Below, piece by piece: positions 19,300 to 32,385 of a stretch of 64,000 nt of DNA. How positions within the stretch are numbered: the stretch's first letter is position 1; every line of letters begins with the position of its first letter. This stretch comes from Nocardioides jishulii (lineage in GTDB: Bacteria > Actinomycetota > Actinomycetes > Propionibacteriales > Nocardioidaceae): the NCBI RefSeq assembly GCF_006007965.1, contig NZ_CP040748.1:3472001-3536000 (forward strand), written 5' to 3'. A program made the translations under genes and the position numbers. The notes beneath the pieces are model-generated. The model worked only from the letters and a program-made list of their open reading frames with translations. It had not been told where the DNA came from and ran no database searches.

Positions 19300-20376
19300 A
19301 TGACCCTGACCCTCCACGTCGACGGACCCCGCTGGCGCGAGCACCTGGTGGAAGTCGCCGAGCGCACCCCCGGACTCGTCCCGGTCGCCAAGGGCAACGG
19401 CTACGGCTTCGGCCTGGGGCGCCTCGCCAGGCGTACGCAGTGGCTCGCCGACCGCGGTGTGGGCACCGGCCAGACCTGGGGCGACGTGCTCGCCGTCGGG
19501 ACCTACGACGAGGTCGCCGAGGTCGCCGACCGCTTCCACGGCAGCATCCTCGTCCTCACCCCGTGGCGTCCCTTCGGCGCAGCCCTCGAGGTCGACCCGG
19601 CGTTCGCGGGACGGGTCATCCACACGGTGAGCCGCGCGGAGGACCTCGCCGCCCTGCTCGAGCGTCAGCCCGACGCCCGCTACGTGCTCGAGCTGGTCAC
19701 CTCGATGCTGCGCCACGGCATGACCGGCCGCGACCTGCGCGGCCTGGGCGGGCTCACCGCCCGGGGCCGCCTGGAGGGCATCGCCCTGCACCTCCCGCTG
19801 GCGCAGGGCTCCCACCTCTCCCAGGTGCAGCGACTGATCACCGACGCCGTCTCCGCCGACCTGCCCACGCGCACGCTGTGGGTGAGCCACCTGACCGACT
19901 CCGAGCACGAGCGGCTGCGCGCCTCCTACTCCGACTACACCATCCGACCGCGCATCGGCACCGGTCTGTGGTTGGGCGACCGCGGCGCGTTGAAGGTCAC
20001 CGCGCAGGTGCTCGACGTGCACCCGGTCGAGCGCGGCGACGTCTTCGGCTACCGCTCCCGTACGGCGCCCAAGAGCGGCCACGTGCTCATCGTCTCCGGG
20101 GGCACGGCCCACGGCATCGGCCTGGCGGCGCCCTCGGGCGACCTCTCGCTCAAGTCCCGGGCCGCCACCCTGGCCCGAGGCGGCCTGGACGCCGTCGGCT
20201 TCGTCCGCTCGCCCTACTTCATCGGCGGCAAGCAGTGCCTCTTCGCCGAGCCGCCGCACATGCAGGCCTCGATGCTCTTCCTGCCCCACGGCTCACCGGT
20301 GCCGGCGGTCGGCGACGAGATCGACGTACGCGTGCGCTTCACCACGACGTCGTTCGACCGGGTCGAGATTTCCTGA
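19300..20376 (+). CDS. Alanine racemase-like fold-type III PLP protein
   Basis: 358 residues. The N-terminal TIM barrel holds the PLP-lysine motif in the form PVAKGNGYGFG (K30), and HGMTG appears where alanine racemases have their substrate-contacting histidine. The C-terminal beta domain is recognisable by IGTGLWLGDRGALKVTAQVLDVHPVERGDVFGYR. The PLP motif differs from the usual VVKANAYGHG, and the protein may racemise another amino acid or supply a D-amino acid for the wall. Its start lies 1 bp after the FemX stop, so the pair likely works in the same peptidoglycan step. It converges on the DUF4241 gene. Confidence 0.75.
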   Translation: MTLTLHVDGPRWREHLVEVAERTPGLVPVAKGNGYGFGLGRLARRTQWLADRGVGTGQTWGDVLAVGTYDEVAEVADRFHGSILVLTPWRPFGAALEVDPAFAGRVIHTVSRAEDLAALLERQPDARYVLELVTSMLRHGMTGRDLRGLGGLTARGRLEGIALHLPLAQGSHLSQVQRLITDAVSADLPTRTLWVSHLTDSEHERLRASYSDYTIRPRIGTGLWLGDRGALKVTAQVLDVHPVERGDVFGYRSRTAPKSGHVLIVSGGTAHGIGLAAPSGDLSLKSRAATLARGGLDAVGFVRSPYFIGGKQCLFAEPPHMQASMLFLPHGSPVPAVGDEIDVRVRFTTTSFDRVEIS

Positions 20377-20395: not shown

Positions 20396-21019
20396 CTACA
20401 CGGGCTGCGCCCCGTCGAGGATCTTGAGGTCCACCAGCACCGCGACTCCTTGGCCGTCACGGTCGAAGCCGACCCACGCCGCGTACTCGTCCGGGCCGTC
20501 CGGCACCTCGAACACCACGGCGGCGACCCGGCCCTGCACCTCCATCGTGACCACCTGCTCGGCCAGCGCCGCGTCGAAGACCCGCTTCATCTGCGCGTCG
20601 TCCTCGAACACCTCCTGCAGGAGCGCGGCGTCGGTGATGTCGTAGAAGGCGCCCAGTCCTGAGTCACAGTCGAGGTGGACGTGCTCCTCGGCCTGGACTA
20701 CCGGTTGCCACGTCGCGACGTCAGCGAGCCGACCGATCGACGCGGCGCATGCCATCGGCTGCGGCTCCGTGCCGCTCCCACGGGGAACGTCGATGGTGCT
20801 CAACGTCGTTGGCCACTCACCCTTCCCGAGGAGGACCGCCGGGAACTCCGGGGAGACCTCCGGGAACCAGGGATCGGCGATCGCCAGCATTCCCCACGGC
20901 AACTCGATCGACGGCCCGGCCACCGCCCGCAACGTCACGGTCCGCTGAGCACGACCCTCCTGCTCGGGCAGCACGAACCGGTCACCGAAACGAACGAGGT
21001 CGGACGGTTGTGTCGTCAC
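20396..21019 (-). CDS. DUF4241 family protein
   Basis: 207 residues with DUF4241-like features: FVLPEQEGRAQRTVTLRAVAGPSIELPWGMLAIADPW near the N-terminus, then CDSGLGAFYDITDA and a beta-rich C-terminus ending VAVLVDLKIL. No enzymatic residues are known to me. The GTG at 21019 has GGAGGA 6 nt upstream. It is the last of a reverse-strand group with a small membrane protein and a pentapeptide-like protein, next to the RHS array. A role as an immunity or accessory protein is possible from location only. Confidence 0.65.
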   Translation of the reverse strand: MTTQPSDLVRFGDRFVLPEQEGRAQRTVTLRAVAGPSIELPWGMLAIADPWFPEVSPEFPAVLLGKGEWPTTLSTIDVPRGSGTEPQPMACAASIGRLADVATWQPVVQAEEHVHLDCDSGLGAFYDITDAALLQEVFEDDAQMKRVFDAALAEQVVTMEVQGRVAAVVFEVPDGPDEYAAWVGFDRDGQGVAVLVDLKILDGAQPV

Positions 21020-21035
21020 TCGCACTCCTCCATCA

Positions 21036-21230
21036 TCATGGGTCCTCCGTGTCATGCACTTCTGGTGTCTCACTCGGATCACTACGTCCTGGGATCGACA
21101 GGAGGGCGAGGATCATGAAGAGGGATCCGGACTGCACCATGGTCAGGGGCGTCAGGGCGATCGCTGCGACCAGCAGCACAGCCAGGACCACCACCACCTG
21201 GAGGAGCGGGTCTGACTTGAGTCGCTCCAT
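21036..21230 (-). CDS. Small two-helix membrane protein
   Basis: 64 residues: a short polar start (MERLKSDPLL), two hydrophobic segments separated by a PLTMVQSG turn, and an acidic polar tail. I do not recognise it. GGGGAG lies 3 nt before the ATG at 21230; an ATG four codons earlier (21242) is also possible. It ends 16 bp before the DUF4241 start, and the two are probably co-transcribed. Confidence 0.5.
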   Translation of the reverse strand: MERLKSDPLLQVVVVLAVLLVAAIALTPLTMVQSGSLFMILALLSIPGRSDPSETPEVHDTEDP

Positions 21231-21352
21231 GGTCTCCCCCATCTGCTCTCACACGTGGCATGGCCCCGCACGACACGGTCCCACGATCGGTGGGCGACAG
21301 CAGCGGATCCGCCACCGACGTTCGACCGGTTCGAGGACCGCCGGGGCCCATG

Positions 21353-22114
21353 TCAGCCATCGGGCAGTTCCACCGCGATCAGCGCGCGCCACATCCGCCT
21401 CCACGTGCCATCCATCAAGGGGTCGTCCAGACGCACGACCTTGGTGCTCTGCACGTTCGCAGGCTCGAGGTCGACCCAGTAGAACTCCAACCACCGCAGC
21501 AGCTCCGGGTCACTCCCATCCTGCTCGAGCCTGCTGCGCAGCGCCCGCATCCGGTCCGGCACGCGGTCGACACGGACGTGGTGCTCGTCGCGCGGCCACA
21601 GTTGGTCATCCACCGGCACCTCGGCAGACAGCCCCATCCCCAGCAGGTCTGCCCGGCTGAAGTCGTTGCCGATGATCACGTTGCGCGGAGCACCCGGCTC
21701 GTCCTCACGACCCCACAGCGACAGACTGTCGACCGTGCCGATGAAACGGTTGCGCACCAGGTCGACGGCGAAGAAGTGAGCGTTCCACCGGCACGAGTCG
21801 AACGTGCAGTCCTCGAACCTGACCCGCCGGGCGAACACCCTCCTCAAGTCACAGCGGGTGAAGACGCACCTCGTGAAGCGAGACGCAGCATCGGGATCAG
21901 GCAACGGGCTCCCCAGGTACCAGTCGAGCCTGCAGTCGACGAACTCGCTGTCCACGAAGTCGCAGTCCCGGAAGGACAACCAGTCCGGCCCATCCTTGAT
22001 CCGCTCGAAGCGCACGCCCTCCAGCCGGCGGCCGTCAAACCGCCACTGCACCCCATCGCGCGGACGCTTGCGCACCACAGTCCCGGGAGGCAGGTCGGGT
22101 CCCTCGACGAACAT
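21353..22114 (-). CDS. Pentapeptide-repeat-like protein
   Basis: 253 residues. The central part (about 35-160) has a quasi-repeated alternation of hydrophobic and polar residues with F/C at spaced positions (FRDCDFVDSEFVDCRLD, TRCVFTRCDLRRVFARRVRFEDCTFDSC), as in right-handed beta-helix pentapeptide proteins. The C-terminal 90 residues are helical with many tryptophans. Its role is unknown; some pentapeptide proteins mimic DNA or protect targets. AGGAG lies 6 nt before the ATG at 22114. It stands just beyond the end of the RHS array in the same orientation, so an array-related function is conceivable. The 110 bp after it hold nothing clear. Confidence 0.65.
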   Translation of the reverse strand: MFVEGPDLPPGTVVRKRPRDGVQWRFDGRRLEGVRFERIKDGPDWLSFRDCDFVDSEFVDCRLDWYLGSPLPDPDAASRFTRCVFTRCDLRRVFARRVRFEDCTFDSCRWNAHFFAVDLVRNRFIGTVDSLSLWGREDEPGAPRNVIIGNDFSRADLLGMGLSAEVPVDDQLWPRDEHHVRVDRVPDRMRALRSRLEQDGSDPELLRWLEFYWVDLEPANVQSTKVVRLDDPLMDGTWRRMWRALIAVELPDG

Positions 22115-22167
22115 GCTGGACTCCTCTCGACTCACGGCTCAGAAGAACCAGCCAGGCCAACGGTAGG

Positions 22168-22566
22168 TCACCCCCATCGCGTCGACGTACTGCTTGCCCT
22201 GGTCAGGCGAACGCACCCGAGAATGAGACCGACCGCGAGAACAGCCCACCCGAAGGTCACGACCCACTCGCTGCGCAGTGCCGCGACCGTGCCCTTGATG
22301 ATCGCGATGGCGACCAAGGCCAGGACCACCTTGACGCTCACACCCGTCAGGTCGGTCCCTCGACTCCCGCTCGCGCCACGGGGTCCCGCGCCGAGGTCCG
22401 TCAGCACCATGACAAGTGCAAGCACCAGCATCGCCAAGGTCACGGCCAACGCCAACGGCAGCGGCCACCGCTGGTGGGTCTCCGCGATCATCATCGATGT
22501 CGTGAGCACGAGCCCGGCGACGACGAGACGTTCAGGAGCCGCGGGCGCCTGTCTCCTATTTCGCAT
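22168..22566 (-). CDS. Putative immunity membrane protein of the last RHS unit
   Basis: 132 residues with four hydrophobic helices and short polar loops. I do not recognise a family. The ATG at 22566 overlaps the end of the RHS reading frame by 11 bp, with GGTGGAG 6 nt upstream inside the RHS gene, so the two are translationally coupled. By position it should neutralise the tip encoded by the RHS frame ending at 22556. This is inference from toxin/immunity gene order; no motif proves it. Confidence 0.55.
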   Translation of the reverse strand: MRNRRQAPAAPERLVVAGLVLTTSMMIAETHQRWPLPLALAVTLAMLVLALVMVLTDLGAGPRGASGSRGTDLTGVSVKVVLALVAIAIIKGTVAALRSEWVVTFGWAVLAVGLILGCVRLTRASSTSTRWG

Positions 22567-23197
22567 GGCAGGCTCCACCAGGACGTATCGACATCGCATA
22601 GTCGACGAACGCCACCAACGCTGTGCCCGCCTGCGCATAGCGCGCGGCTTTGAGTGCCAATGCGTTCGCGAAGTGGACCGTCGAGAACTGCGCTGCGACG
22701 AACCCCGCGCCTGTCACCAGTGTGGTGAACACTGAATAGCGACAACCGATGGTGACCTGACCATAAGTTGCGATGTCCCGGAACAGTCGCATCACGCCTG
22801 TGATCACCACATTGTTCGTCGTGCCGATGGCAGCGAGCGCGGCCGCGTCGTAGGAGCGACTCGAACCCCCTTCCGCCACGGGCGCGTAGCTGACCGCCAT
22901 CTCCCCCGTGGGGTCGACGTACGAGTAAGGCTGGTTGCCCACGTACGGATACCAGTTCAACGCGTCCACCGGGTCCTCAGACGCGAACCGACCCACCCCG
23001 GCGTCGTACCAGCGGGCCCGGGCGAAGTGCATCCCCACGTCACCGTCCCACGCGTGACCGGTGTACCCGTAGACGTCACCCAGGCCCACCGCACCCGTAC
23101 CGGCCGGCTGACCGAACACCGAGTACGCCGAGGACGACACCACCCCGCCGCACGCCGCACACCGTCTCACCATCAGACGTCGACTGCAGCGGATCAC
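22556..23197 (-). CDS. 5'-truncated RHS fragment with hydrophobic tip (unit A)
   Basis: The RHS core runs from SSSAYSVFGQPAGTG through YTGHAWDGD, RWYDAGVGRFASEDPVDA and YVDPTGEMA. A tip of about 110 residues follows, with hydrophobic segments and the ending G-G-A-C-H-A-K. The first 18 codons are not RHS-like: compared with the other copies, about 50 bp of core have been deleted at 23150-23160, shifting the frame. Upstream RHS DNA (23161-23217) is still recognisable in another frame. No start codon with a good ribosome site is evident, so this is a remnant or is expressed only after recombination. It is followed by an overlapping membrane protein. Confidence 0.65.
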   Translation of the reverse strand: MIRCSRRLMVRRCAACGGVVSSSAYSVFGQPAGTGAVGLGDVYGYTGHAWDGDVGMHFARARWYDAGVGRFASEDPVDALNWYPYVGNQPYSYVDPTGEMAVSYAPVAEGGSSRSYDAAALAAIGTTNNVVITGVMRLFRDIATYGQVTIGCRYSVFTTLVTGAGFVAAQFSTVHFANALALKAARYAQAGTALVAFVDYAMSIRPGGACHAK

Positions 23198-23294
23198 CCG
23201 AAGGCGCCGTCACGAACGTCCAGACCAGCACCCCCGAGCACACCGACTCCGAGACCCGGTCGTCAGTGCACGGCTCAGGCGCCGCGTCCGTCGA

Positions 23295-23690
23295 TCACGA
23301 GGACGTCGCACGGGAGCGTAGGAACAGCATGAGGGCCGTGCCCACCGTCAGAGCGCCAAGCGACACCAACGACACCAGGAGCCTCCCGTCCCAGGCGGCG
23401 GCCACCATCGTCCAGCCCAACCCCACAGCCACGATGCCGATGAAGAGGTGATCCGAGAGAGAAGCCGCTTTCGGTGACTGCATGCGCGGTCGACGTACGA
23501 CCATCCAGACGACCAGCGCAGCCACCACCCCCACCCAGGCCATCCCCAGCCAGAACGTGTAGTGGTCAAGGTCGGAATCGAGCCCCATGAACCACAACAC
23601 CATCGCCCACATCGCCAACGGCGTGAGCAAATGGTCCCGCTCGACACCAGCCCTGGATGTGGAGGTGCCGACGCCTCGGTCAGTTGCCAC
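23295..23690 (-). CDS. Putative immunity membrane protein, duplicated copy 1
   Basis: 131 residues with three to four hydrophobic helices. It lies wholly in the 615-bp repeat and differs from the copy at 25681-26076 by two residues that I can see (S/P and I/N in the SDHLF region). The GTG at 23690 overlaps by 11 bp the end of a tip remnant that ends in S-C-G-N. An in-frame start 20 codons upstream is open, but its extra residues lie within the tip DNA. Its cognate tip is only a remnant here. Confidence 0.55.
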   Translation of the reverse strand: MATDRGVGTSTSRAGVERDHLLTPLAMWAMVLWFMGLDSDLDHYTFWLGMAWVGVVAALVVWMVVRRPRMQSPKAASLSDHLFIGIVAVGLGWTMVAAAWDGRLLVSLVSLGALTVGTALMLFLRSRATSS

Positions 23691-23793
23691 AACTGCCCCG
23701 CCTCTTGAGGTGGTCGATGTAGGTCTTGAGCCAGTGCGCCTCCGCTGCATCAGACGTCACCGGCAGCCGAAAGCTGGAGACAATCACGGCTCT
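23680..23793 (-). pseudogene. RHS tip remnant ending S-C-G-N, copy 1
   Basis: About 37 codons in frame (VSSFRLPVTSDAAEAHWLKT and following) end with a stop at 23680 inside the downstream membrane protein start. It looks like the last part of a variable tip without its RHS core. An almost identical copy lies at 26066-26179. Confidence 0.45.
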
Positions 23794-24179
23794 TCCAGCT
23801 CGTCGCCACCATCGTGGCTGAGGGTCGACACCCGCCCGCCTTGTGGAGACCGTGGCGGAATCCAGGCAACCAGAGTCAGGAGCAGAGCTGGAAGTACCCA
23901 CCACCCGGCTCCTGAGGCGTCATCGAGCCAAGCGTCGATGAAGCCCCAGATGCACACCCCTACGCCGATGAGCCAAGGCGCCATGCCGACACCCGTGCCC
24001 ATGCCGATCTCTCTCAGGAGGAGGACCAACCCCACAGAAACAGCCCAGGGGACGGCCATCGCGACGAGGTCCCATGCGCCGACCTGCGGCCACGAGAGCA
24101 CTGCCACCGCCACGTACGCGGCCATCAACGCGAACCCGATGCCCCAGAGGTGCACGCGTGACTCAGACGCCACGGCCAC
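23784..24179 (-). CDS. Putative immunity membrane protein (four helices)
   Basis: 131 residues with about four membrane helices (SRVHLWGIGFALMAAYVAVAV, AWDLVAMAVPWAVSVGLVLLL, a third at WLIGVGVCIWGFI, and WWVLPALLLTLVAWI). The GTG at 24179 overlaps by about 17 bp the end of a tip remnant finishing G-A-C-G-R-G-V. A shortened relative with an internal deletion lies at 30248-30436, so this membrane protein family occurs twice in the array. Function is inferred from position. Confidence 0.55.
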   Translation of the reverse strand: MAVASESRVHLWGIGFALMAAYVAVAVLSWPQVGAWDLVAMAVPWAVSVGLVLLLREIGMGTGVGMAPWLIGVGVCIWGFIDAWLDDASGAGWWVLPALLLTLVAWIPPRSPQGGRVSTLSHDGGDELEEP

Positions 24180-24348
24180 ATGCTCCGTTGGTCGTCATGC
24201 TGGACACGTAGCTAACCGCAGCGCTCACGAACTCCGCCAATGCGACGGCCGCCTTCGTGTAGGCCGCTGCCTTCGCACTGATGTTCGTGTACTTGAGAAC
24301 ATCTTTGAAGAGCACGGACACGCTCATCGACCCCGCAACGACGAAGTC
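24163..24348 (-). pseudogene. RHS tip remnant ending G-A-C-G-R-G-V
   Basis: An in-frame stretch (from about VVAGSMSVSVLFKDVLKY) resembles the tip of unit A: compare AKAAAYTKAAVALAEFV with LALKAARYAQAGTALVAFV. It has no RHS core in frame. Directly upstream (24350-24405) is a 56-bp piece nearly identical to part of the tip at 29973-30028 in a different frame, so this is a chimeric scar. Confidence 0.5.
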
Positions 24349-24431
24349 CCCACCATCAGCAGCTTGGCTTTTGCGTAGACCATCGCTCCCCGGTCTGCGG
24401 ACATCGCGAGTGAGGATGCCCGTTGGGCGAC

Positions 24432-24905
24432 TCACAGGGCCTCGAGGGAGGCGGCACCCAGGATGAGGAATCCGCTCAGAACGAGCAGTGCGCCATAGGC
24501 CCCGTCCTTGGCGGACCGGCGGCGCGCTCCCAGTAACGCCCCGAGGACGACCGACAGACACCCGGCCAGCAACAGCACGGCCCACGGCGGCACCGCCTCA
24601 CGCATCGCCACCGGCGGGAGAGTCACAGCAGCGACGGCCAGCATGCCCCGCCCATGCGGAGACGGCAATCCCTGCTTCCCTTCCGTCTCTGGGTCGGCGA
24701 AGCCTCCCAAAGCGAACACTGCCTCCTGTGCCACCACCAGGGCGACCGCCCCCAGCATGACCGCGAGGACAACGAACAGCAGCGAGGCCCCACCCGCCAG
24801 GCCCGACACCGACGACGCGATGCCGAAACCCGGGACCAGAAGTACCGGCCAGGCCCTGGCGGGAACCTCCCACAGCCCCCCCGCCGACGAGTGGTCCACT
24901 GCCAT
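24432..24905 (-). CDS. Putative immunity membrane protein of RHS unit B
   Basis: 157 residues, about four to five hydrophobic helices, not recognised. The ATG shares its first base with the last base of the RHS stop codon (TGATG at 24907-24903), so translation is coupled to the RHS tip. By gene order it is the candidate immunity protein for unit B. No conserved motif is visible. Confidence 0.6.
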   Translation of the reverse strand: MAVDHSSAGGLWEVPARAWPVLLVPGFGIASSVSGLAGGASLLFVVLAVMLGAVALVVAQEAVFALGGFADPETEGKQGLPSPHGRGMLAVAAVTLPPVAMREAVPPWAVLLLAGCLSVVLGALLGARRRSAKDGAYGALLVLSGFLILGAASLEAL

Positions 24906-25627
24906 CAGTCCTCACACGTCGAGCCCAGAGCCAACAGCTCGGTGGTCAGGAACCAAGCCAACTCCGCCAGAAGCAACTTGGAACGTGCGTACACCGACAA
25001 CCCTGGGGTCACATTGGCACCCATCAGGATCCACACCGCTGTCGCGTGAATGGCGAGGAGCTCCGCCCCGTCGCCATAAGCCTGACGCGCGCATCCTCCC
25101 CAGGGATTTGATGAGGCCAAAGAGGAGAGCAACGAGTATCCCCCCAACGCCCCGCTCGTGAAGTAGGTGACGATCAGCGCACCGGTAGACCCGATGATTC
25201 GCATCGCGGGGTCGAGGATCCGGGCGTAGAAGACCGCCACCTCGCCCGTGGGATCGGTGAGATCCATGGATCGGTTGCCCACGTACGTGTACAGGTTCAT
25301 CGCGTCAATCGGGTCTTCCGAGGCAAAACGCCCCACCCCGGCGTCGTACCACCGCGCCCGCGCGAAGTGCATCCCCGCGTCACCGTCCCACGCGTGACCG
25401 GTGTAGCCGAACGCGTCACCCAGACCCACCGCACCCGTACCGGCCGGCTGACCGAAGACCGAGTACGCCGAGGACGACACCACCGCGCCGGCAGAATCCA
25501 GCGTCCCCGTCCCCGTCACCGATCCCAGTCCGTCCAGCACGCCGCACACCGTCTCACCCTCAGCGGTCCAGCGCAGCGGATCACCGAAGGAACCGTCACG
25601 GCCGTCCAGACCAGCACCCCCGAGCAC
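24905..25627 (-). CDS. 5'-truncated RHS fragment with hydrophobic tip (unit B)
   Basis: 240-codon frame. The RHS core runs from GDPLRWTAEGETVCGVLDGLGSVTG to DLTDPTGEVA. The tip is about 105 residues, with FYARILDPAMRIIGSTGALIV, an internal G-G-C-A-R and the end S-T-C-E-D. Just upstream of the core start, one C is missing from the run present in sister copies (near 25583), so the frame shifts into unrelated codons and the first residues are not RHS. The tip is clearly related to those of units D and E. An overlapping membrane protein follows. Confidence 0.7.
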   Translation of the reverse strand: MLGGAGLDGRDGSFGDPLRWTAEGETVCGVLDGLGSVTGTGTLDSAGAVVSSSAYSVFGQPAGTGAVGLGDAFGYTGHAWDGDAGMHFARARWYDAGVGRFASEDPIDAMNLYTYVGNRSMDLTDPTGEVAVFYARILDPAMRIIGSTGALIVTYFTSGALGGYSLLSSLASSNPWGGCARQAYGDGAELLAIHATAVWILMGANVTPGLSVYARSKLLLAELAWFLTTELLALGSTCED

Positions 25628-25680
25628 ACCGACTCCGAGACCCGGTCGTCAGTGCACGGCTCAGGCGCCGCGTCCGTCGA

Positions 25681-26076
25681 TCACGAGGACGTCGCACGGG
25701 AGCGTAGGAACAGCATGAGGGCCGTGCCCACCGTCAGAGCGCCAAGCGACACCAACGACACCAGGAGCCTCCCGTCCCAGGCGGCGGCCACCATCGTCCA
25801 GCCCAACCCCACGGCCACGATGCCGTTGAAGAGGTGATCCGAGGGAGAAGCCGCTTTCGGTGACTGCATGCGCGGTCGACGTACGACCATCCAGACGACC
25901 AGCGCAGCCACCACCCCGACCCAGGCCATCCCCAGCCAGAACGTGTAGTGGTCAAGGTCGGAATCGAGCCCCATGAACCACAACACCATCGCCCACATCG
26001 CCAACGGCGTGAGCAAATGGTCCCGCTCGACACCAGCCCTGGATGTGGAGGTGCCGACGCCTCGGTCAGTTGCCAC
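25681..26076 (-). CDS. Putative immunity membrane protein, duplicated copy 2
   Basis: 131 residues, all but identical to the protein at 23295-23690. The GTG at 26076 overlaps the tip remnant ending at 26066. Its right-hand neighbour differs from that of copy 1, so one of the two is out of its original context. Three to four membrane helices are visible. Function is inferred. Confidence 0.55.
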   Translation of the reverse strand: MATDRGVGTSTSRAGVERDHLLTPLAMWAMVLWFMGLDSDLDHYTFWLGMAWVGVVAALVVWMVVRRPRMQSPKAASPSDHLFNGIVAVGLGWTMVAAAWDGRLLVSLVSLGALTVGTALMLFLRSRATSS

Positions 26077-26179
26077 AACTGCCCCGCCTCTTGAGGTGGT
26101 CGATGTAGGTCTTGAGCCAGTGCGCCTCCGCTGCATCGGACGTCACCGGCAGCCGAAAGCTGGAGACAATCACGGCTCT
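26066..26179 (-). pseudogene. RHS tip remnant ending S-C-G-N, copy 2
   Basis: The counterpart of the remnant at 23680-23793, carried by the duplicated segment. It lacks an RHS core and its upstream sequence is unrelated to RHS. It ends inside the start of the membrane protein. Confidence 0.45.
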
Positions 26180-26253
26180 TCCAGCTCGTCGCCACCATCG
26201 TGGCTGAGGGTCGACACACCAATCCCTCGCCCCCTGTCAGGCGGCTCTTGGTC

Positions 26254-26805
26254 TCAACCCCTCCCCGACGGACGCGACGATGGACCGCGATCGTCGTTGA
26301 CGGTGGGGCCCGTGGGCCCGTCCTGCAGTTGCCTCGCTGCAACCAGCGCAAGAACCGTCAGATGCAGCGCACCGAAGAGGCTCACGACCCACAACGCCGG
26401 TAACTCCGCGTGTCGCCCCGCGCTCAAGATCCAGAGCCACACCCCCGCAGTCAAAGTCTCTCCCACCAAGGTCCCCCAAGGAGCCTTCCGATCACGTTTC
26501 CAGCGCGCCAGCGTCCACTTGAGGAAAAGGACAATCAGCAGCGCTAGAGGCAGCCATGCCACTCTCTGATCGACGCCAGGAATGGCCGAAGTCAGGAGCT
26601 GACTCGCCACCACGCCCTGGTAGGTCCAGACGCCCATGAAGATCGCGATCCACCCATACGAAGCGGCCAGCCGGTCCCTGGCCATGACTGCGACAGCAGT
26701 GGCCACCCCCACGACCACAGTGAGCCACGCGGATGACATCGCCCCGGCGGAGGCGAGGACCACGGCAGCGACCCACCAGCGTGTGTGACCAGATCGGGCG
26801 TCCAC
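26254..26805 (-). CDS. Membrane protein downstream of a decayed RHS piece
   Basis: 183 residues with five or six hydrophobic helices, larger than the other membrane proteins of the array. The frame is open upstream into RHS-derived sequence (TAPSGDPLQSTAEGGTVCSM), which would make a fusion. However, a GTG at 26805 with GAGGA 5 nt upstream gives a normal start just before the first helix and is preferred. It may be the immunity protein of a lost tip. Confidence 0.5.
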   Translation of the reverse strand: MDARSGHTRWWVAAVVLASAGAMSSAWLTVVVGVATAVAVMARDRLAASYGWIAIFMGVWTYQGVVASQLLTSAIPGVDQRVAWLPLALLIVLFLKWTLARWKRDRKAPWGTLVGETLTAGVWLWILSAGRHAELPALWVVSLFGALHLTVLALVAARQLQDGPTGPTVNDDRGPSSRPSGRG

Positions 26806-26825
26806 ACGCGTCCTCGTAGATGGCT

Positions 26826-26985
26826 CCGATCCCAGTCCGCCCAGCATGCTGCACACCGTCCCACCTTCCGCGGTCGACTGCAGGGGATCACCCGAGGGAG
26901 CCGTCGCGCACACCGTCCAACCGTTGTAACCCACGTGGTCACCCGACCATCCGAAGACCGGACCGCCTGGACCCGAAGCGCACCT
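26826..26985 (-). pseudogene. Decayed RHS core piece
   Basis: Recognisable RHS sequence in two frames: RVQAVRSSDGRVTTW in one, then TAPSGDPLQSTAEGGTVCSM in another. Compared with the intact unit at 27.3-28.1 kb, a block including the GYNGSSVAAVWRQ part is missing and the frame is broken. No tip follows. Confidence 0.6.
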
Positions 26986-27063
26986 TCGCGTCTGCGCCAT
27001 CGATGCCTGGCCGCGGAGAAGTGGAAGATGCCCCCAAGGCAGCCGTGGGCCCAGGGAGAACCC

Positions 27064-27258
27064 TCAGCTCGGTGGGTGGAACTCATCCCGTCGTCGCAGT
27101 TCCCGCCACACCAATCCTGTGAAGAGCAGAATGATGAGGACAGACGCCAACTGCGAATACCAGGCTCCTGGCATCAGAGCGAGTTTGGCGAGGAGTATTC
27201 CCACCACCATCACGTACGCCGCCAGGAGGGGGCGCTTGGAACTCCGTTCTCCCCCCAT
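27064..27258 (-). CDS. Small two-helix putative immunity protein of RHS unit C
   Basis: 64 residues: a basic start (MGGERSSKRP), two hydrophobic helices joined by a short polar loop, and a charged tail. The ATG at 27258 lies 2 bp after the RHS stop codon, so it is translated with unit C. It is much smaller than the other membrane proteins of the array. Confidence 0.5.
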   Translation of the reverse strand: MGGERSSKRPLLAAYVMVVGILLAKLALMPGAWYSQLASVLIILLFTGLVWRELRRRDEFHPPS

Positions 27259-27260
27259 GA

Positions 27261-28154
27261 CTACGCACCGCCGCCTGCGTTGCATGAGCCTCCAGCACGG
27301 AGCGATTCAAACGTGATGGCCCAGAAACTTGCAGTGACGGTTGTGTCCCACAGGCACGCACGATTGACGCCGTGCTTGCCCATGCCGATCAGCTGGGGAA
27401 GAAGCGTCAAAGCACCAAACGCAGGCACCGCGACGTATTGAGTCGCCTTCGCGAAGTCAGCCCCAAACTGACTCGTGGCCGCGACTTCGACGGCGAACTC
27501 GCCCGTCGGATCGTGATAGTCCAGTGGCTGGTTGCCCACGTACGAATACAGGTTCATCGCGTCCACCGGGTCCTCAGACGCGAACCGACCCACCCCGGCG
27601 TCGTACCAGCGGGCCCGGGCGAAGTGCATCCCCGCGTCACCGTCCCACGCGTGACCGGTGTAGCCGACCGCGTCACCCAGACCTACCGCACCCGTACCGG
27701 CCGGCTGGCCGAAGACCGAGTACGCCGAGGAAGACGCCACCGCGCCGGAAGCATCCAGCGTCCCCGTCACCGACCCGAGACCGTCCAGCATGCTGTACAC
27801 CGTCTCACCATCGGACGTCGACTGCAGCGGATCACCCGAGGGAGCCGTCACGAACGTCGACACCAGCACCCGCGGCTCACCGGCCGTCTGGCGCCACACC
27901 GCCGCCACCGACGACCCGTTGTAGCCCCACGTGGTCACCCGACCGTCCGAGGACCGGGTCGCCTGGACCCGCATCCCGGCCGCGTCGTAGCGGTAGCGCA
28001 CCGTGGCACCCGACGGCTTCACCAGCTCGACCAGCCGGTGCTCGGAGTCCCACACGAACCGGGTCGTCGCGCCCGAGGCCCGCACCTTCTTCGACGTCAG
28101 GTTACCCTCGCCGTCGTAGGTGTAGTCGTGCTTCGCATCGCGCACCAGGCACAC
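27261..28154 (-). CDS. 5'-truncated RHS gene with variable tip (unit C, longest)
   Basis: 297-codon frame with the best-preserved RHS sequence of the array. YD-type repeats (YDGEGNLTSKKVRASG, VRYRYDAAGMRVQA) are followed by the core through SEDPVDAMNLYSYVGNQ and YHDPTGEFA. A tip of about 75 residues ends G-S-C-N-A-G-G-G-A. The RHS similarity starts abruptly at about 28140, in the middle of a repeat, directly after a foreign tip remnant, so the 5' part of the gene was cut off by recombination. There is no ribosome site at the first ATG. RHS proteins deliver such tips to other cells; this piece could serve as a donor for tip exchange. Confidence 0.75.
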   Translation of the reverse strand: MCLVRDAKHDYTYDGEGNLTSKKVRASGATTRFVWDSEHRLVELVKPSGATVRYRYDAAGMRVQATRSSDGRVTTWGYNGSSVAAVWRQTAGEPRVLVSTFVTAPSGDPLQSTSDGETVYSMLDGLGSVTGTLDASGAVASSSAYSVFGQPAGTGAVGLGDAVGYTGHAWDGDAGMHFARARWYDAGVGRFASEDPVDAMNLYSYVGNQPLDYHDPTGEFAVEVAATSQFGADFAKATQYVAVPAFGALTLLPQLIGMGKHGVNRACLWDTTVTASFWAITFESLRAGGSCNAGGGA

Positions 28155-28300
28155 ACGGTCGCCCCATTCTTCTCGGTGGCCGCGTCTGCCACGATGCTGA
28201 TCGCGGACACCAGGAAGCCAGTGGCCGCTGCTGTGTCAAAGGGGGTCCCGGCAAGACAACTGGCCGTCGCTCTGGATCGGTTTGGGCACCTGACGGATGT
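28155..28300 (-). pseudogene. Tip-like remnant between units C and D
   Basis: One frame reads TPFDTAAATGFLVSAISIVADAATEKNGATVCAW, with the hydrophobic helix and late cysteine seen in other tips, and then runs into the unit C repeat out of frame. It has no core of its own. It is probably the end of another lost cassette. Confidence 0.35.
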
Positions 28301-28311
28301 CACCGAACTGC

Positions 28312-28764
28312 TCATGCCCCTGCGGCCGCACCGAGCAGCATCAGCAGGACCCCCGCCGTCAGGAAGAGCGGCACAGCCACCGGAGCAACTGAACGTCGCC
28401 AGTGGGCGACACCGCCGAGGACCAGGCTGACGACACCCGCCATCCACATGGACAGACGGGCATCGACCGACACCGACGACACCGCCGCCACCACGAGCAC
28501 CACCGCGAAGAGACCAGTCAGGCGCACTCGCTCCGCGGACGGGCGCCCCGAGCGCGTGTTACGGTCCCGCTCCGGCTCCTCGGTGAGCCAGCCGATCATC
28601 AGCATTCCGATCACGATCAGGACCCCGAGATACCACCAAGTGGGTCCTAGGGCGATCTCATGGGCGGCCACCGCCAGGACGAAGCCGGTTTCACCTCCCC
28701 GCCACCGCTTGAATCTGGTTGTGCCACCTGTTGGCTGACTCGTCGGCACGTCATCGCGTGTCAC
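28312..28764 (-). CDS. Putative immunity membrane protein of RHS unit D
   Basis: 150 residues, four hydrophobic helices. The GTG start overlaps the RHS stop as GTGA (28764-28761), a classic coupled arrangement. It is a close paralogue of the protein at 29457-29897: both share RSGRPS-ERVRLTGLFAVVLVVAAVSSVS and an AHWRRS-AP segment. The tips before these two genes are also related, which supports a matched toxin/immunity family. Function is inferred from position and this co-variation. Confidence 0.62.
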   Translation of the reverse strand: MTRDDVPTSQPTGGTTRFKRWRGGETGFVLAVAAHEIALGPTWWYLGVLIVIGMLMIGWLTEEPERDRNTRSGRPSAERVRLTGLFAVVLVVAAVSSVSVDARLSMWMAGVVSLVLGGVAHWRRSVAPVAVPLFLTAGVLLMLLGAAAGA

Positions 28765-29453
28765 AGGTCCACACACCTCGTCCTCAGCCCGTTCAGAGTG
28801 GTGGCAACGGCCAGCACAAACTCCGCCATGAGCCACTTGGACATCCCGAAAATCACAGCGCCCCTCTGGGTAGGAGCGGCCATGAGAATCATGACAGCCT
28901 GAACGTGGAGGGCAGACCATGCCACCCCCGAGAGGTAGTCATTCCCTGCACAACCTCCCAGTCGATCATCGTTGGGAAAGTGCTTGAGGAACGAATGAGC
29001 CGCCATGACACCCGAGGTGAAGTACATGACGAACCACGCGCCCACACTGCCGACAATCCGCATGCCGTTGTCAAGGAAGCCCGCGTAAGAGAACGCCATC
29101 CGTCCAGTCGGATCAACCCAATCCATCGGCTGGTTGCCCACGTACGGGTAAAGGTTCATCGCATCCACCGGGTCCTCAGACGCGAACCGACCCACCCCCG
29201 CGTCGTACCAGCGGGCCCGGGCGAAGTGCATCCCCGCGTCACCGTCCCACGCGTGACCGGTGTAGCCGAACGCGTCACCCAGACCCACCGCACCCGTACC
29301 GGCCGGCTGGCCGAAGACCGAGTACGCCGAGGAAGACGCGACCCCGCCGGAAGCATCCAGCGTCCCCGTCACCGACCCGAGACCGTCCAGCATGCTGTAC
29401 ACCGTCTCACCATCGGACGTGGACTGCAGCGGATCGCCCGAGGGAGCCGTCAC
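28761..29453 (-). CDS. 5'-truncated RHS fragment with hydrophobic tip (unit D)
   Basis: 230 codons, intact core from TAPSGDPLQSTSDGETVYSM to DWVDPTGRMA. The tip is about 105 residues, with FSYAGFLDNGMRIVGSVGAW, an internal G-G-C-A-G-N and the end T-R-C-V-D-L. The frame opens with a GTG only 4 bp after the stop of the preceding membrane protein, exactly at the V-T-A-P-S-G-D-P point where several other pieces of the array also begin. It could be translated by re-initiation from the gene before it. The tip is related to units B and E. Confidence 0.72.
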   Translation of the reverse strand: MTAPSGDPLQSTSDGETVYSMLDGLGSVTGTLDASGGVASSSAYSVFGQPAGTGAVGLGDAFGYTGHAWDGDAGMHFARARWYDAGVGRFASEDPVDAMNLYPYVGNQPMDWVDPTGRMAFSYAGFLDNGMRIVGSVGAWFVMYFTSGVMAAHSFLKHFPNDDRLGGCAGNDYLSGVAWSALHVQAVMILMAAPTQRGAVIFGMSKWLMAEFVLAVATTLNGLRTRCVDL

Positions 29454-29456
29454 CGC

Positions 29457-29897
29457 TCATGTCCCTGCGACCGCACCGAGCAGGATCAGCAGTACTCCTG
29501 CCATGAGGAAGAGCGGCGCAGCCAGCGGAGCGGCGGAACGCCGCCAGTGGGCCACACAGCCGAAGACCAGGCTGACGACACCCGCCACCAACATCGACCA
29601 GCGCGCGTCGAGCGACACCGACGACACGGCCGCCACCACAAGCACCACCGCGAAGAGACCGGTCAGGCGCACCCGCTCCACGGAAGGGCGCCCCGAGCGC
29701 GTGTGGCGGTCCGTCTCTGGCTCAGCCTCCGAAATGGCCACACCGATCATCCCGACTCCGCAGACGACTAGGAGCGCCAAGAACCACCAACTAGGTCCCC
29801 ACGCAATCTCCCGTGCTGCCCAGGCCAGGATGAGCCCGGCGAATAGCGCCGACCCACGACTGTCTCGATTCACACCACCCGTGCGCTGACTCAACAT
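29457..29897 (-). CDS. Putative immunity membrane protein of RHS unit E
   Basis: 146 residues, four hydrophobic helices, paralogue of the protein at 28312-28764. The ATG at 29897 lies 13 bp after the RHS stop at 29911; a GTG at 29924 that overlaps the tip gene is also open. Shared residues with the paralogue begin around the S-Q-x-T-G-G near the start, favouring the shorter form. Role inferred. Confidence 0.58.
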   Translation of the reverse strand: MLSQRTGGVNRDSRGSALFAGLILAWAAREIAWGPSWWFLALLVVCGVGMIGVAISEAEPETDRHTRSGRPSVERVRLTGLFAVVLVVAAVSSVSLDARWSMLVAGVVSLVFGCVAHWRRSAAPLAAPLFLMAGVLLILLGAVAGT

Positions 29898-29910
29898 GCG
29901 GGGGTTCCCG

Positions 29911-30231
29911 TCACCGGTTCTCACACGTCGTCCTCAGCGAGTTCAGAGCGCCACCTATTGCCACCGCAAGTTCCACCATCAGCAGCTTGGCTCTTGCGTA
30001 GACCATCGCTCCCCGGTCTGCGGCCATCACTCCTGTGGTGGAGTACGCGACGATCAAGGCTCCCGTGGTGCCGACAAGCCGCGCGCCACTGTCCATCAGG
30101 CCGCCGTAGAAGACCGCCTCCCCACCGGCAGCATCCAGCGTCCCCGTCACCGACCCGAGACCGTCCAGCACGCTGCACACCGTCTCACCATCGGCTGTCG
30201 ACTGCAGCGGATCGCCCGAAGGAGCCGTCAC
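29911..30231 (-). CDS. Core-deleted RHS fragment with hydrophobic tip (unit E)
   Basis: 106 codons. It begins with the same TAPSGDPLQSTADGETVCSVLDGLGS stretch as other units, but jumps in frame from the D-A-A-G-G after SVTGT straight into the tip (EAVFYGGLMDSGARLVGTTGA). About 80 codons of the core, including the D-P-T-G boundary, have been removed. The tip ends T-T-C-E-N-R. The exact in-frame join leaves an uninterrupted tip frame, so it may be more than random decay. Confidence 0.62.
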   Translation of the reverse strand: MTAPSGDPLQSTADGETVCSVLDGLGSVTGTLDAAGGEAVFYGGLMDSGARLVGTTGALIVAYSTTGVMAADRGAMVYARAKLLMVELAVAIGGALNSLRTTCENR

Positions 30232-30247
30232 GAAGCTCTGGACCAGC

Positions 30248-30436
30248 TCATGCTGGTTTGCTGGACAGGAGGGGAACCCAGGCGAGCAAGGTCAGGAGGA
30301 GCGCTGGAAGCGCCCACGCTCTCAGGACGAGAACTATCAGCACTGAACCAGTCCACGGGACAGACAACGCGACGAGGTCCCACACACCGGCCGCCGGCCA
30401 CGACATCACAGCGCCCACCGCGTAGCCACCGGCAGC
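30248..30436 (-). pseudogene. Shortened relative of the membrane protein at 23784-24179
   Basis: The frame reads GYAVGAVMSWPAAGVWDLVALSVPW, then jumps to ALPALLLTLLAWVP, matching the other protein with its third helix region deleted. It has no good start codon and overlaps the end of the next gene. It marks another displaced cassette. Confidence 0.5.
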
Positions 30437-30438
30437 GG

Positions 30439-30669
30439 TCAGTCCTTGGACGGGCGGTTGCCGCGCCGCAGCCGAGCCCACCGCACGAGTCCGACGATGC
30501 CGACGAGACACCCGATGCCGGTCACCGTAACTCCGATGCCCAGCTTGGCACCCATACCGTTTCTCTGCACGTCGTCCAGCGCCAGACACAGCCAGAACAG
30601 CGAGGAGAGACTGAGTGCAAGCATGAAGACGGCAAACTCACCGCTCCGCTCGAAGTCGCTCTCACTCAT
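30439..30669 (-). CDS. Small two-helix membrane protein at the head of the array
   Basis: 76 residues: acidic start (MSESDFERSG), two hydrophobic helices, basic tail (RWARLRRGNRPSKD). It is not recognised. It is the first gene of the array in the direction of transcription. No strong ribosome site precedes the ATG. It may be an orphan immunity protein. Confidence 0.45.
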   Translation of the reverse strand: MSESDFERSGEFAVFMLALSLSSLFWLCLALDDVQRNGMGAKLGIGVTVTGIGCLVGIVGLVRWARLRRGNRPSKD

Positions 30670-30954: not shown

Positions 30955-32358
30955 TCATTTCTGGGTCGCGGGCCGCGCATCCACCAGTGCTGACTCGACG
31001 GCAGGATCACGGCCGCCCACGGGATCCTCGTCAGGGTCGAGCACGCCGCGGACCACCATCGCGACCAACCACAGCTGCGCGGCGATGCGCAGCGCGATCG
31101 CCGCCCAGTAGATGACCGAGTACTCGCCCTGGGCCGGATCCAGGAGGCCGCCGAGCCACCACCAGACGGCGGCGAAGTAGAAGATCTCACCGGCCTGCCA
31201 GATGAGCAGGTCGCGCCACCTCGGGTGGGCGAGCACGGCCAGAGGCAGCAGCCACAGGACGTACTGCGGGGAGTAGACCTTGTTGACCAGCAGGAAGCCG
31301 GCCAGGATCAGGAAGCCGAGCTGGGCGAAGCGCGGTGACTGCGGGGCCTTGAGACCCAGCACCAGGACGCCGACGCACCACAGCAGGAAGAAGGCCCACG
31401 AGCCGTCGTTGATCAGGCCCACGTCGATCCAGGTGCCCGGGCCCATCATCTGCTGGACCATCAGCCAGACCGACCCCAGGTCGGCGCCACGGTCGGAGTT
31501 GAACGACCAGAACACCTTCCACTGCTCCGGACCGGTCAGCAGGGCTGGAGCGTTGGCGAGCAGCCACGCCACGGCGGCACCCAGGAACGCTCCCGCCAGG
31601 GCCGTCCACCGACGACCCCGCAGGCAGATCACGAGGACCGCGCCGAGCAGGAAGAGTGGATAGAGCTTGACCGCCGTCCCCACTCCGATGAGTACGCCGG
31701 TGAGCACCGGCCGGTCCTTGGCCCAGGCCCACGCGGCCCCCGCGACGAAGACCACGGCGAGCAGGTCCCAGTTCATGATGCCGGTGACGGCCAGCGCAGG
31801 GGCCAGCGCGAAGCCGGCCGCGTCCCACGGACGTCGCCGGGTCACGCCGGCCATGAACCAGGTCGTCAGCAGGGCGACCAGGGCGAAGCCAACGGCGTTG
31901 ACCGCGACGTACAGGGTGCCTTCGCGGGGCATGTCACGCGCGGGGTCGTCGACGTCGGGGGCTCCGCTGAGCGCCCAGGTGACCACGCCGGTGCCCCACG
32001 CCCAGTAGGAGATCCCGGCGGGATACTCCATGACCTCGAACTCCGCGCGGACCTCGGCGTCGTCGGTGTAGGGCCAGTGCAGGTCGGCCATGCCACGCAA
32101 CCCGTAGAGGAAGGGCAGGTCGGAGTAGCACATGTGGGTGTAGCGCAGGGTGTTGTCCTGCCACTCGTCAGCAGCACACGGCGCCTTGGCGAGCATCCCC
32201 GCCGCGAACGTCAGGGCGGTGAGCACCAGCAGTACGCGCACCGGTGACCACCACGGGTGACGCCCGGCCCGCTGGCCCATCGGGCCCCCGACCGACTCTG
32301 ACAGCGCGGCCACCGTCGGGTCGTCGTGGGTGGGGTGCACCCACGACGACTCGCTCAC
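30955..32358 (-). CDS. GT87 (DUF2029) membrane glycosyltransferase next to ponA
   Basis: 467 residues with ten or more hydrophobic helices. It has the GT87-like first loop (NTLRYTHMCYSDLPFLYGLRG) and a VLIGVGTAVKLYPLFLLGAV segment in mid-protein. It should move a sugar from a polyprenyl-phosphate carrier outside the cell. From memory, genes of this type follow ponA in mycobacteria and Streptomyces, so a cell-envelope role is likely. The GTG at 32358 has GGGAGGGAC just upstream; an ATG at 32382, 4 bp after the ponA stop, is an alternative. It is co-transcribed with ponA. Confidence 0.78.
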   Translation of the reverse strand: MSESSWVHPTHDDPTVAALSESVGGPMGQRAGRHPWWSPVRVLLVLTALTFAAGMLAKAPCAADEWQDNTLRYTHMCYSDLPFLYGLRGMADLHWPYTDDAEVRAEFEVMEYPAGISYWAWGTGVVTWALSGAPDVDDPARDMPREGTLYVAVNAVGFALVALLTTWFMAGVTRRRPWDAAGFALAPALAVTGIMNWDLLAVVFVAGAAWAWAKDRPVLTGVLIGVGTAVKLYPLFLLGAVLVICLRGRRWTALAGAFLGAAVAWLLANAPALLTGPEQWKVFWSFNSDRGADLGSVWLMVQQMMGPGTWIDVGLINDGSWAFFLLWCVGVLVLGLKAPQSPRFAQLGFLILAGFLLVNKVYSPQYVLWLLPLAVLAHPRWRDLLIWQAGEIFYFAAVWWWLGGLLDPAQGEYSVIYWAAIALRIAAQLWLVAMVVRGVLDPDEDPVGGRDPAVESALVDARPATQK

Positions 32359-32385
32359 CGTCCCTCCCTGCGGCGAGCCCATGCC

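Follow-up and report, generated by a model that had tools for sequence, protein, structure and literature searches.

Layout of the array

A stretch of 64,000 nucleotides at the end of the Nocardioides jishulii genome (contig NZ_CP040748.1, positions 3472001-3536000; hereafter the window) carries, on the minus strand between 22168 and 30669, an array of five RHS 3' pieces, one core stub and several tip remnants, interspersed with genes for small membrane proteins. This row of pieces and remnants on one strand had been noticed in a preliminary description made from the sequence alone, and is confirmed here. The genome, 100% complete, is a single contig of 3,536,142 bases; the window closes 142 bases short of the contig end, and to that extent the earlier placement of the array near the origin fits. 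In 5' to 3' order along the minus strand the features are as follows; SD stands for Shine-Dalgarno, and membrane-protein genes are labelled TM.

30439-30669, minus strand: TM76, two-segment membrane protein, first gene of the array; no tip recognised ahead of it; without SD-like motif
30273-30445, minus strand: remnant of a TM131-related membrane gene, by DNA matches to 24116-24011 and 23901-23857 and by protein match
29911-30231, minus strand: RHS piece 1, core fragment and internally shortened tip of 70 amino acids (aa); GTG start without SD-like motif
29457-29924, minus strand: TM155, four-segment putative immunity protein; 14-nt overlap with tip 1; SD-like motif
28761-29453, minus strand: RHS piece 2, core and hydrophobic tip of 114 aa with Cys 52 and 111
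28312-28764, minus strand: TM2, putative immunity protein, 68% identical to TM155; 4-nt overlap with tip 2; SD-like motif
28165-28310, minus strand: probable tip remnant with Cys at its end, continuing into the core of piece 3; recognised by eye from the translation
27261-28154, minus strand: RHS piece 3, longest core (RHS/YD repeats, Rhs_assc_core) and tip of 80 aa
27064-27285, minus strand: TM73, two-segment putative immunity protein; 25-nt overlap with tip 3; SD-like motif
26826-26975, minus strand: core stub of 66 + 86 nt, internally deleted; shares an open frame with TM186
26254-26814, minus strand: TM186, membrane protein behind the core stub; no tip recognised
25681-26076, minus strand: TM151a, putative immunity protein; the tip ahead of it reduced to a C-terminal remnant (stop ending at 26066); SD-like motif
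24905-25627, minus strand: RHS piece 4, core and tip of 113 aa with Cys 52 and 111
24432-24905, minus strand: TM157, four-segment putative immunity protein; 1-nt overlap with tip 4; SD-like motif
24163-24405, minus strand: tip remnant covering the C-terminal ~60 aa, behind a 56-nt piece with a 96% match to tip 1 DNA
23784-24179, minus strand: TM131, four-segment putative immunity protein; 17-nt overlap with the tip remnant; SD-like motif
23295-23690, minus strand: TM151b, 98.7% copy of TM151a; tip remnant ahead; SD-like motif
22556-23197, minus strand: RHS piece 5, core with deletion and tip of 116 aa with Cys 55 and 113; shared with Nocardioides malaquae
22168-22566, minus strand: TM132, putative immunity protein; 11-nt overlap with tip 5; SD-like motif; 95% identical to its N. 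malaquae counterpart

RHS cores and tips

The core fragments measure 146-681 nt. Compared with the longest copy, three cores are 94, 85 and 79% identical over 350-403 nt, and the copy at 30247 is 88% identical over 146 nt; the statement that the cores are nearly identical up to D-P-T-G and the tips then differ holds with these values (79-94% DNA identity) and with one exception, since four of the five cores extend to the conserved D-P-T-G, beyond which the tips diverge, and piece 1 has lost its core end, including this motif, together with part of its tip. The NCBIfam family Rhs_assc_core matches the four long pieces with 61-66 bits (cut-off 32.5) but not piece 1; beyond the RHS families, no Pfam or NCBIfam entry matches the pieces over its cut-off. 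The tips are short (70-116 aa) and hydrophobic, with a grand average of hydropathy (GRAVY) of 0.42-0.64; two cysteines lie 58-59 residues apart in tips 2, 4 and 5 and 24 apart in tip 3, and tip 1 has a single one. Identity to tip 2 is 41% for tip 4, 20% for tip 5 and 16% for tip 3. The structure model of tip 4 shows four helices, with a mean predicted local distance difference test score (pLDDT) of 80 in the best of five runs and 47-53 in the others; aligned with VIA-align, it reached Z scores up to 8.8 on helical bundles, a range deemed uninformative.

At the left ends of the truncated or deleted cores, five of six breakpoints (by our scoring) fall within a 31-nt core stretch (window 27851-27882 and equivalents; L037:10177 in N. 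malaquae). A rough scan gave p = 0.00025 for this cluster, a post hoc value with two copies merged, and microhomology deletion could also produce such clustering.

Membrane-protein genes

Hydropathy indicates two to four membrane segments in each gene overlapped by a tip. All five tips overlap such a gene, by 14, 4, 25, 1 and 11 nt for pieces 1 to 5, and only C-terminal tip remnants precede three more (TM151a, TM131 and TM151b), in agreement with the earlier remark that a small membrane protein directly follows most tips; a candidate immunity gene right behind the tip, as in orphan RHS toxin/immunity modules, is thus present in five of five cases. Membrane genes outnumber tips. From TM76 to TM132 the array lies on the minus strand throughout, with gaps of -25 to 207 nt between neighbours. 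Sub-threshold family matches of the ten open membrane proteins are spread over unrelated membrane families, and the structure model of TM132 was poor (mean pLDDT 56). An internal duplication (25224-26217 and 22884-23831; 997 alignment columns, 90% identity) carries a tip remnant, TM151 and core; the array therefore grew by duplication as well as by import.

The corresponding locus in Nocardioides malaquae

The array is flanked by two conserved, convergent genes, which we take to be an AlaR-like gene and a GT87 gene, and is followed by three accessory genes:

30955-32382, minus strand: GT87 conserved gene, the flank ahead of the array; the array lies 285 nt behind it on the same strand
21353-22135, minus strand: pentapeptide-like gene, adjoining tip 5/TM132 in both species
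21036-21242, minus strand: 68-aa membrane protein with two segments by hydropathy, downstream accessory
20396-21082, minus strand: DUF4241-like protein (match below the Pfam cut-off), downstream accessory
19300-20376, plus strand: AlaR-like conserved gene, the other flank

The nearest named relative found, Nocardioides malaquae Y6 (locus L037), has an array at the same site. It consists of a cassette whose tip and partner have no predicted membrane segments; of core, tip 5, TM132 and the pentapeptide-like gene; and of four small hydrophobic open reading frames (ORFs) with one to three segments, two of which are related to TM151 (51%) and TM2 (63%). Tip 5 and TM132 differ from their N. malaquae counterparts at 21 of 731 sites, compared to 24 of 252 in the core next to them. 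The block of low divergence, 22943-21934, enters the pentapeptide-like gene and has 29 differences in 1010 sites, with none of 100 shuffles as extreme. Synonymous divergence (dS) between the two species is 0.03-0.05 for tip 5 and TM132, compared to 0.25 for the core, 0.23 for the pentapeptide-like gene, 0.35 for the AlaR-like gene and 0.59 for GT87. With tip 5/TM132 nearly identical and their surroundings more diverged, cassettes therefore appear to move as units, and the sequence comparison fits a recent transfer of the tip 5/TM132 cassette as such a unit.

Core stubs of 56-57 nt immediately precede two of the membrane ORFs of N. malaquae. The stubs score 28-30 against the best reference, compared to shuffle maxima of 19-21, and the second is weaker against other references; no tip was recognised by eye in front of these ORFs, whose position behind core stubs suggests that they are former RHS cassettes with the tips lost. 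A luciferase-like monooxygenase ORF occurs twice (L037:8630-9800 and 12142-13110), around the block of RHS, membrane and pentapeptide-like genes; Pfam Bac_luciferase matches one such ORF. A run of 100 N stands inside the N. malaquae locus, at the first luciferase-like copy, and the gene order is therefore provisional.

This run of N, together with direct repeats, a usual cause of misassembly, could raise the suspicion of an assembly artefact or collapsed repeats in the array as well. Such an explanation is hardly credible for a genome assembled completely into one contig, in which most copies have cores 6-21% apart and different genes behind them, and given a locus of the same kind in a second species.

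Search for a parent gene

A protein search of the N. jishulii genome yielded the array itself and a 32% identical RHS frame at 1.568 Mb. The latter (L056:5611-7456) is an orphan-like piece of ~466 aa with an Ntox24 tip and an ORF behind it; ORFs near it resemble, by eye, an integrase and a transposase. Pfam RHS_repeat added one long RHS gene, the sole one found in the genome, at ~0.22 Mb (L062:4566-10862); it encodes 2098 aa, its N terminus looks signal-like by eye, its tip has no Pfam match, and a 1038-aa ORF precedes it. Blastn found no core-DNA match between this gene and the array, and its best protein match had an E value of 3e-4. No resident parent with the same core was thus found by protein, by Pfam RHS_repeat, by core DNA (three best candidates scored per genome) or by blastn against the long RHS locus, and the earlier observation that no parent lies nearby extends from the window to the rest of the genome.

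Among 214 other genomes of the genus, core DNA gave no match at E<=1e-5, with the three best candidates scored per genome; in the array genome, three array copies came up. Core protein, searched at E<=1e-12, matched in five other genomes, the best being G069 with 60% identity over 92 aa. The G069 match (L054:5668-6966) is a single orphan core end at a different locus, with a hydrophobic tip in which two cysteines are 60 apart, a six-segment membrane protein behind it and a response-regulator-like ORF alongside. A pattern scan of viral contigs yielded no relatives of the core, and all 1148 plasmid records stayed below 60% identity to it. A profile built from tips 2 and 4, the only tips searched in this way, found strong matches in the array genome only among 215 genus genomes, with weak matches in G073 (E 0.002) and G080 (E 0.04). 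Long RHS genes elsewhere were also considered as a source of similar tips; the parsed tips of the first loci looked soluble (10 of 21 were unparsed), and this comparison was replaced by the census described below.

RHS loci with a parent in the genus

Across the 215 genomes, Rhs_assc_core matched 126 times in 62 genomes at E<=1e-6, including six matches in the array genome. For comparison we chose, from seven genomes, eight loci in which two core matches lie at most 10 kb apart on one strand; this set leaves out G067, G088 and G219, each with two neighbouring long copies. Both cores of every chosen locus are spanned by a direct repeat, with 84.6-99.9% identity in seven and 76.9% in L073, which has a separate 93% repeat outside the cores. 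In every locus the longer frame comes first (1159-4032 aa), followed by a second frame of 183-955 aa in seven loci and of 1293 aa in L073. In G022, the long frame of 1159 aa has a signal-like N terminus (by eye) and a 78-aa tip (GRAVY 0.72, two cysteines), followed by a two-segment ORF; the downstream orphan core (92.9% over 618 bp) has a 66-aa tip (GRAVY 1.12, two cysteines) and likewise a two-segment frame. By its predicted features, this is the same design of hydrophobic tip and membrane ORF as in the array. The parsed tips of the other chosen loci are not hydrophobic by the same measure. A census covering 80 of the 120 core matches outside the array genome counted five hydrophobic tips (GRAVY >=0.3), four of them on frames longer than 1000 aa; an ORF with at least two membrane segments stands behind three of these five tips and behind nine of the 75 others. 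Compared with five of 80 in the census, the array stands out with five of five (Fisher 8e-6, for tips that are not independent of one another).

The preliminary description had left two possibilities, a reservoir of cassettes for tip switching or the scar of one, and the comparison favours the scar. A reservoir would supply tips to a full-length RHS gene by homologous recombination, as Salmonella orphan Rhs does. It would suit the core fragments, whose size recombines elsewhere (522 bp at 95% in the Salmonella case as presented in PMC3967940), the cassettes that differ between the two species, one of which moved recently, and the parent-plus-orphan loci of the genus. It is nevertheless quite improbable: since the search of the genome brought up no further gene whose core matches, tip supply to a resident parent is unlikely today; core DNA is likewise without match in the 214 other genomes; in N. 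malaquae, covered by a pattern scan only, this locus alone came up; and most tips are decayed by our scoring. The earlier text had named a lack of matching full-length genes and a lack of variation as arguments against its proposal; the former was borne out, but the array does vary, the cassette set of N. malaquae being a different one.

Decay and selection

We score 10 of 11 membrane genes as open and four of 11 tips as intact (Fisher one-sided 0.012; open frames are weak evidence in GC-rich DNA). SD-like motifs precede eight of eight tip-following membrane genes, a count without TM186 and with some starts picked by hand, compared to one of five RHS pieces and a background of 76 of 594 start codons in the array. 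Among TM2, TM155 and the N. malaquae homologue, the ratio of nonsynonymous to synonymous divergence (dN/dS) is 0.35-0.55 over a dS of 0.6-0.8, with a synonymous excess in the two comparisons involving TM2 (Fisher 1e-7 and 3e-5); tips 2 and 4 compare at 0.43 (Fisher 0.001), and TM151a and TM151b have too few differences for a reading of selection. The selection seen may be older than the orphaning. Since the array lies 285 nt behind GT87 on the same strand, transcription by read-through is possible.

These data also bear on the idea of a plain scar, a dead RHS locus with no gene under selection, whose frames are open only by virtue of young, GC-rich DNA. The many deletions, fused pieces and remnants would be expected of such a locus, as would a GC content at third codon positions (GC3) below that of two neighbours, a dN/dS near 1 for TM132 on few changes, and the lack of an SD-like motif in four of five RHS pieces. 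The imbalance between open membrane genes and intact tips and the low dN/dS in the comparisons of TM2, TM155 and N. malaquae, though selection may predate the orphaning, argue in the other direction and render a plain scar unlikely.

Origin and possible role of the array

It is very probable, and well supported, that the array arose from displaced RHS tip/immunity cassettes. The reading that we prefer goes beyond the preliminary description, whose view of parentless, orphan tip/immunity-like cassettes in an actinobacterium is supported, in proposing that it is not the tips that are kept but the membrane immunity genes: the cassettes are displaced ones, the parent has likely been lost, and the remainder is decaying towards a stock of membrane immunity genes (probability about 0.6). 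An exported RHS gene would once have resided at, or passed through, the site. A new tip with its membrane immunity gene, recombined in through the conserved core, would have displaced the previous pair downstream; internal duplication, as for TM151a and TM151b, would have added copies, and the 5' part of the parent would then have been lost. The short, hydrophobic, mostly two-cysteine and probably helical tips would probably damage or depolarise membranes, and the overlapping small membrane proteins would be their immunity proteins. Tips without a parent could not be delivered and would be decaying; the mostly intact membrane genes would probably protect against related cells still deploying such tips. 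Their present role as an immunity stock, like toxicity, immunity, expression by read-through and selection for protection, we infer from sequence.

Several observations weigh against this reading. One membrane gene is also decayed, frames stay open easily in GC-rich DNA, and the SD motifs within overlaps may have been inherited from once-working pairs. Between the two species, tip 5 (dN/dS 0.62 on eleven changes) and TM132 (0.89 on ten) show no sign of constraint. GC3 is 0.70-0.82 in the array compared to 0.91 and 0.94 in two neighbours. No sigma-70-like promoter consensus was seen in the array, and terminator-like sites are no more frequent than by chance, results that say little for an actinobacterium. 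The ten open membrane proteins have no Pfam or NCBIfam match over cut-off; the structure model of tip 4 was good in only one of five runs and found no Foldseek match at E<=0.001. Finally, no full-length RHS gene with a homologue of tip 2/4 was found in the 215 genomes, and therefore no attacker is known.

A more specific version can be put forward only tentatively, as a polyimmunity locus caught forming. Cassettes of a membrane-attacking RHS class would enter the site between the convergent genes, move between species as units without a resident parent, break repeatedly at one short core stretch and lose their tips, and in the end only core stubs with co-directional membrane immunity genes after them would be left; N. 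malaquae might already show this final stage.

Comparison with known systems

Displaced tip arrays behind full rhs genes, formed by C-terminal displacement, were described by Jackson (2009; PMC2935791). As portrayed in the pertinent sections of that paper, they resemble the array in their partial cores that are much alike, their dissimilar tips, mostly without start signals, and the degeneration of some; in contrast, those fragments follow a complete rhs gene of matching core, which is absent immediately upstream of the present array and was not found elsewhere in the genome, and the actinobacterial host and five hydrophobic tips with membrane-protein partners set the array apart. In Salmonella, orphan rhs-CT/rhsI recombine with the main gene (Koskiniemi, 2014; PMC3967940); in the account given there, these orphans share with the array an RHS fragment, an immunity-type gene and initiation or export signals that are lacking or unclear, but they have a recombining main gene, and no such partner was found here. 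In the immunity-gene arrays of the Vibrio cholerae type VI secretion system, attributed to sequential effector displacement (Kirchberger, 2017; PMC5361080), old immunity genes are kept and old effectors lost, as may have happened in the present array with its 10 of 11 open membrane genes and four of 11 intact tips; the present array differs in its RHS cores and membrane proteins, and no secretion cluster or current effector was recognised at its head.

Polyimmunity loci, some of them in actinobacteria, are never interrupted by toxin cassettes according to the relevant part of Zhang (2012; PMC3482391). The array shares their tandem, co-directional and closely spaced immunity-type genes, and its gene set differs between relatives, with one cassette and two membrane-gene relatives in common with N. 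malaquae; however, tips and cores sit between the membrane genes and interrupt the row. Without the parent of Jackson's arrays and with cassettes that are foreign to Zhang's loci, the array therefore sits between both kinds. The nearest functional parallel noted is TspA/TsaI of Staphylococcus aureus, in which a polymorphic, membrane-depolarising toxin end is accompanied by strings of 2-16 membrane immunity paralogues (PMC9484751, PMC10765036); it differs as an LXG toxin of the type VIIb secretion system whose toxin gene is present, and the portions of these papers on the immunity genes describe no RHS core pieces between them. By analogy, the hydrophobic tips and their two- to four-segment partners only suggest a membrane activity of this type. 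An orphan Rhs immunity protein that protects is documented in the corresponding part of PMC10539506.

The principle is a known one; new here is an actinobacterial, parentless, membrane-type variant. In the open-access literature, with subscription papers mostly outside its scope and absence from print therefore not shown, no report on Rhs polymorphic toxins of Nocardioides was found. The array may offer a view of an "immunity bank" in the making; the origin of stand-alone immunity banks has so far been inferred mainly from Gram-negative secretion loci, to judge from the sections of the cited papers that treat it. Candidate steps (a long RHS gene with tip, a parent with orphan, a parentless mixed array, membrane ORFs behind stubs) occur in one genus, so that the order of events and selection become testable. 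The tips and their membrane partners, with no family match, may represent an undescribed class of Gram-positive membrane-acting toxins.

The insertion site

The flank genes were searched in 215 genus genomes and found paired, among the matches listed, in 97. The gap between them is 10,584 bp in the array genome compared to a median of 55 bp in the paired genomes, where it measures at most 300 bp in 83, 301-1000 bp in eight and more than 1 kb in six. Site-specific integration of cassettes was not adopted as an explanation; no recombinase was recognised by eye among the ORFs at 18-34 kb of the window, and no family search was made. The pentapeptide-like gene has no match at E<=1e-20 in the 214 other genomes. 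Among the closest genomes with larger gaps, the site holds other ORFs, named by eye: a pentapeptide-repeat-like ORF in G023, and flavohaemoglobin-like and luciferase-like ORFs in G094; with different ORFs between the same flanks, the site therefore accepts varied inserts. The luciferase-like ORF of G094 is present in a single copy, beside the AlaR-like gene.

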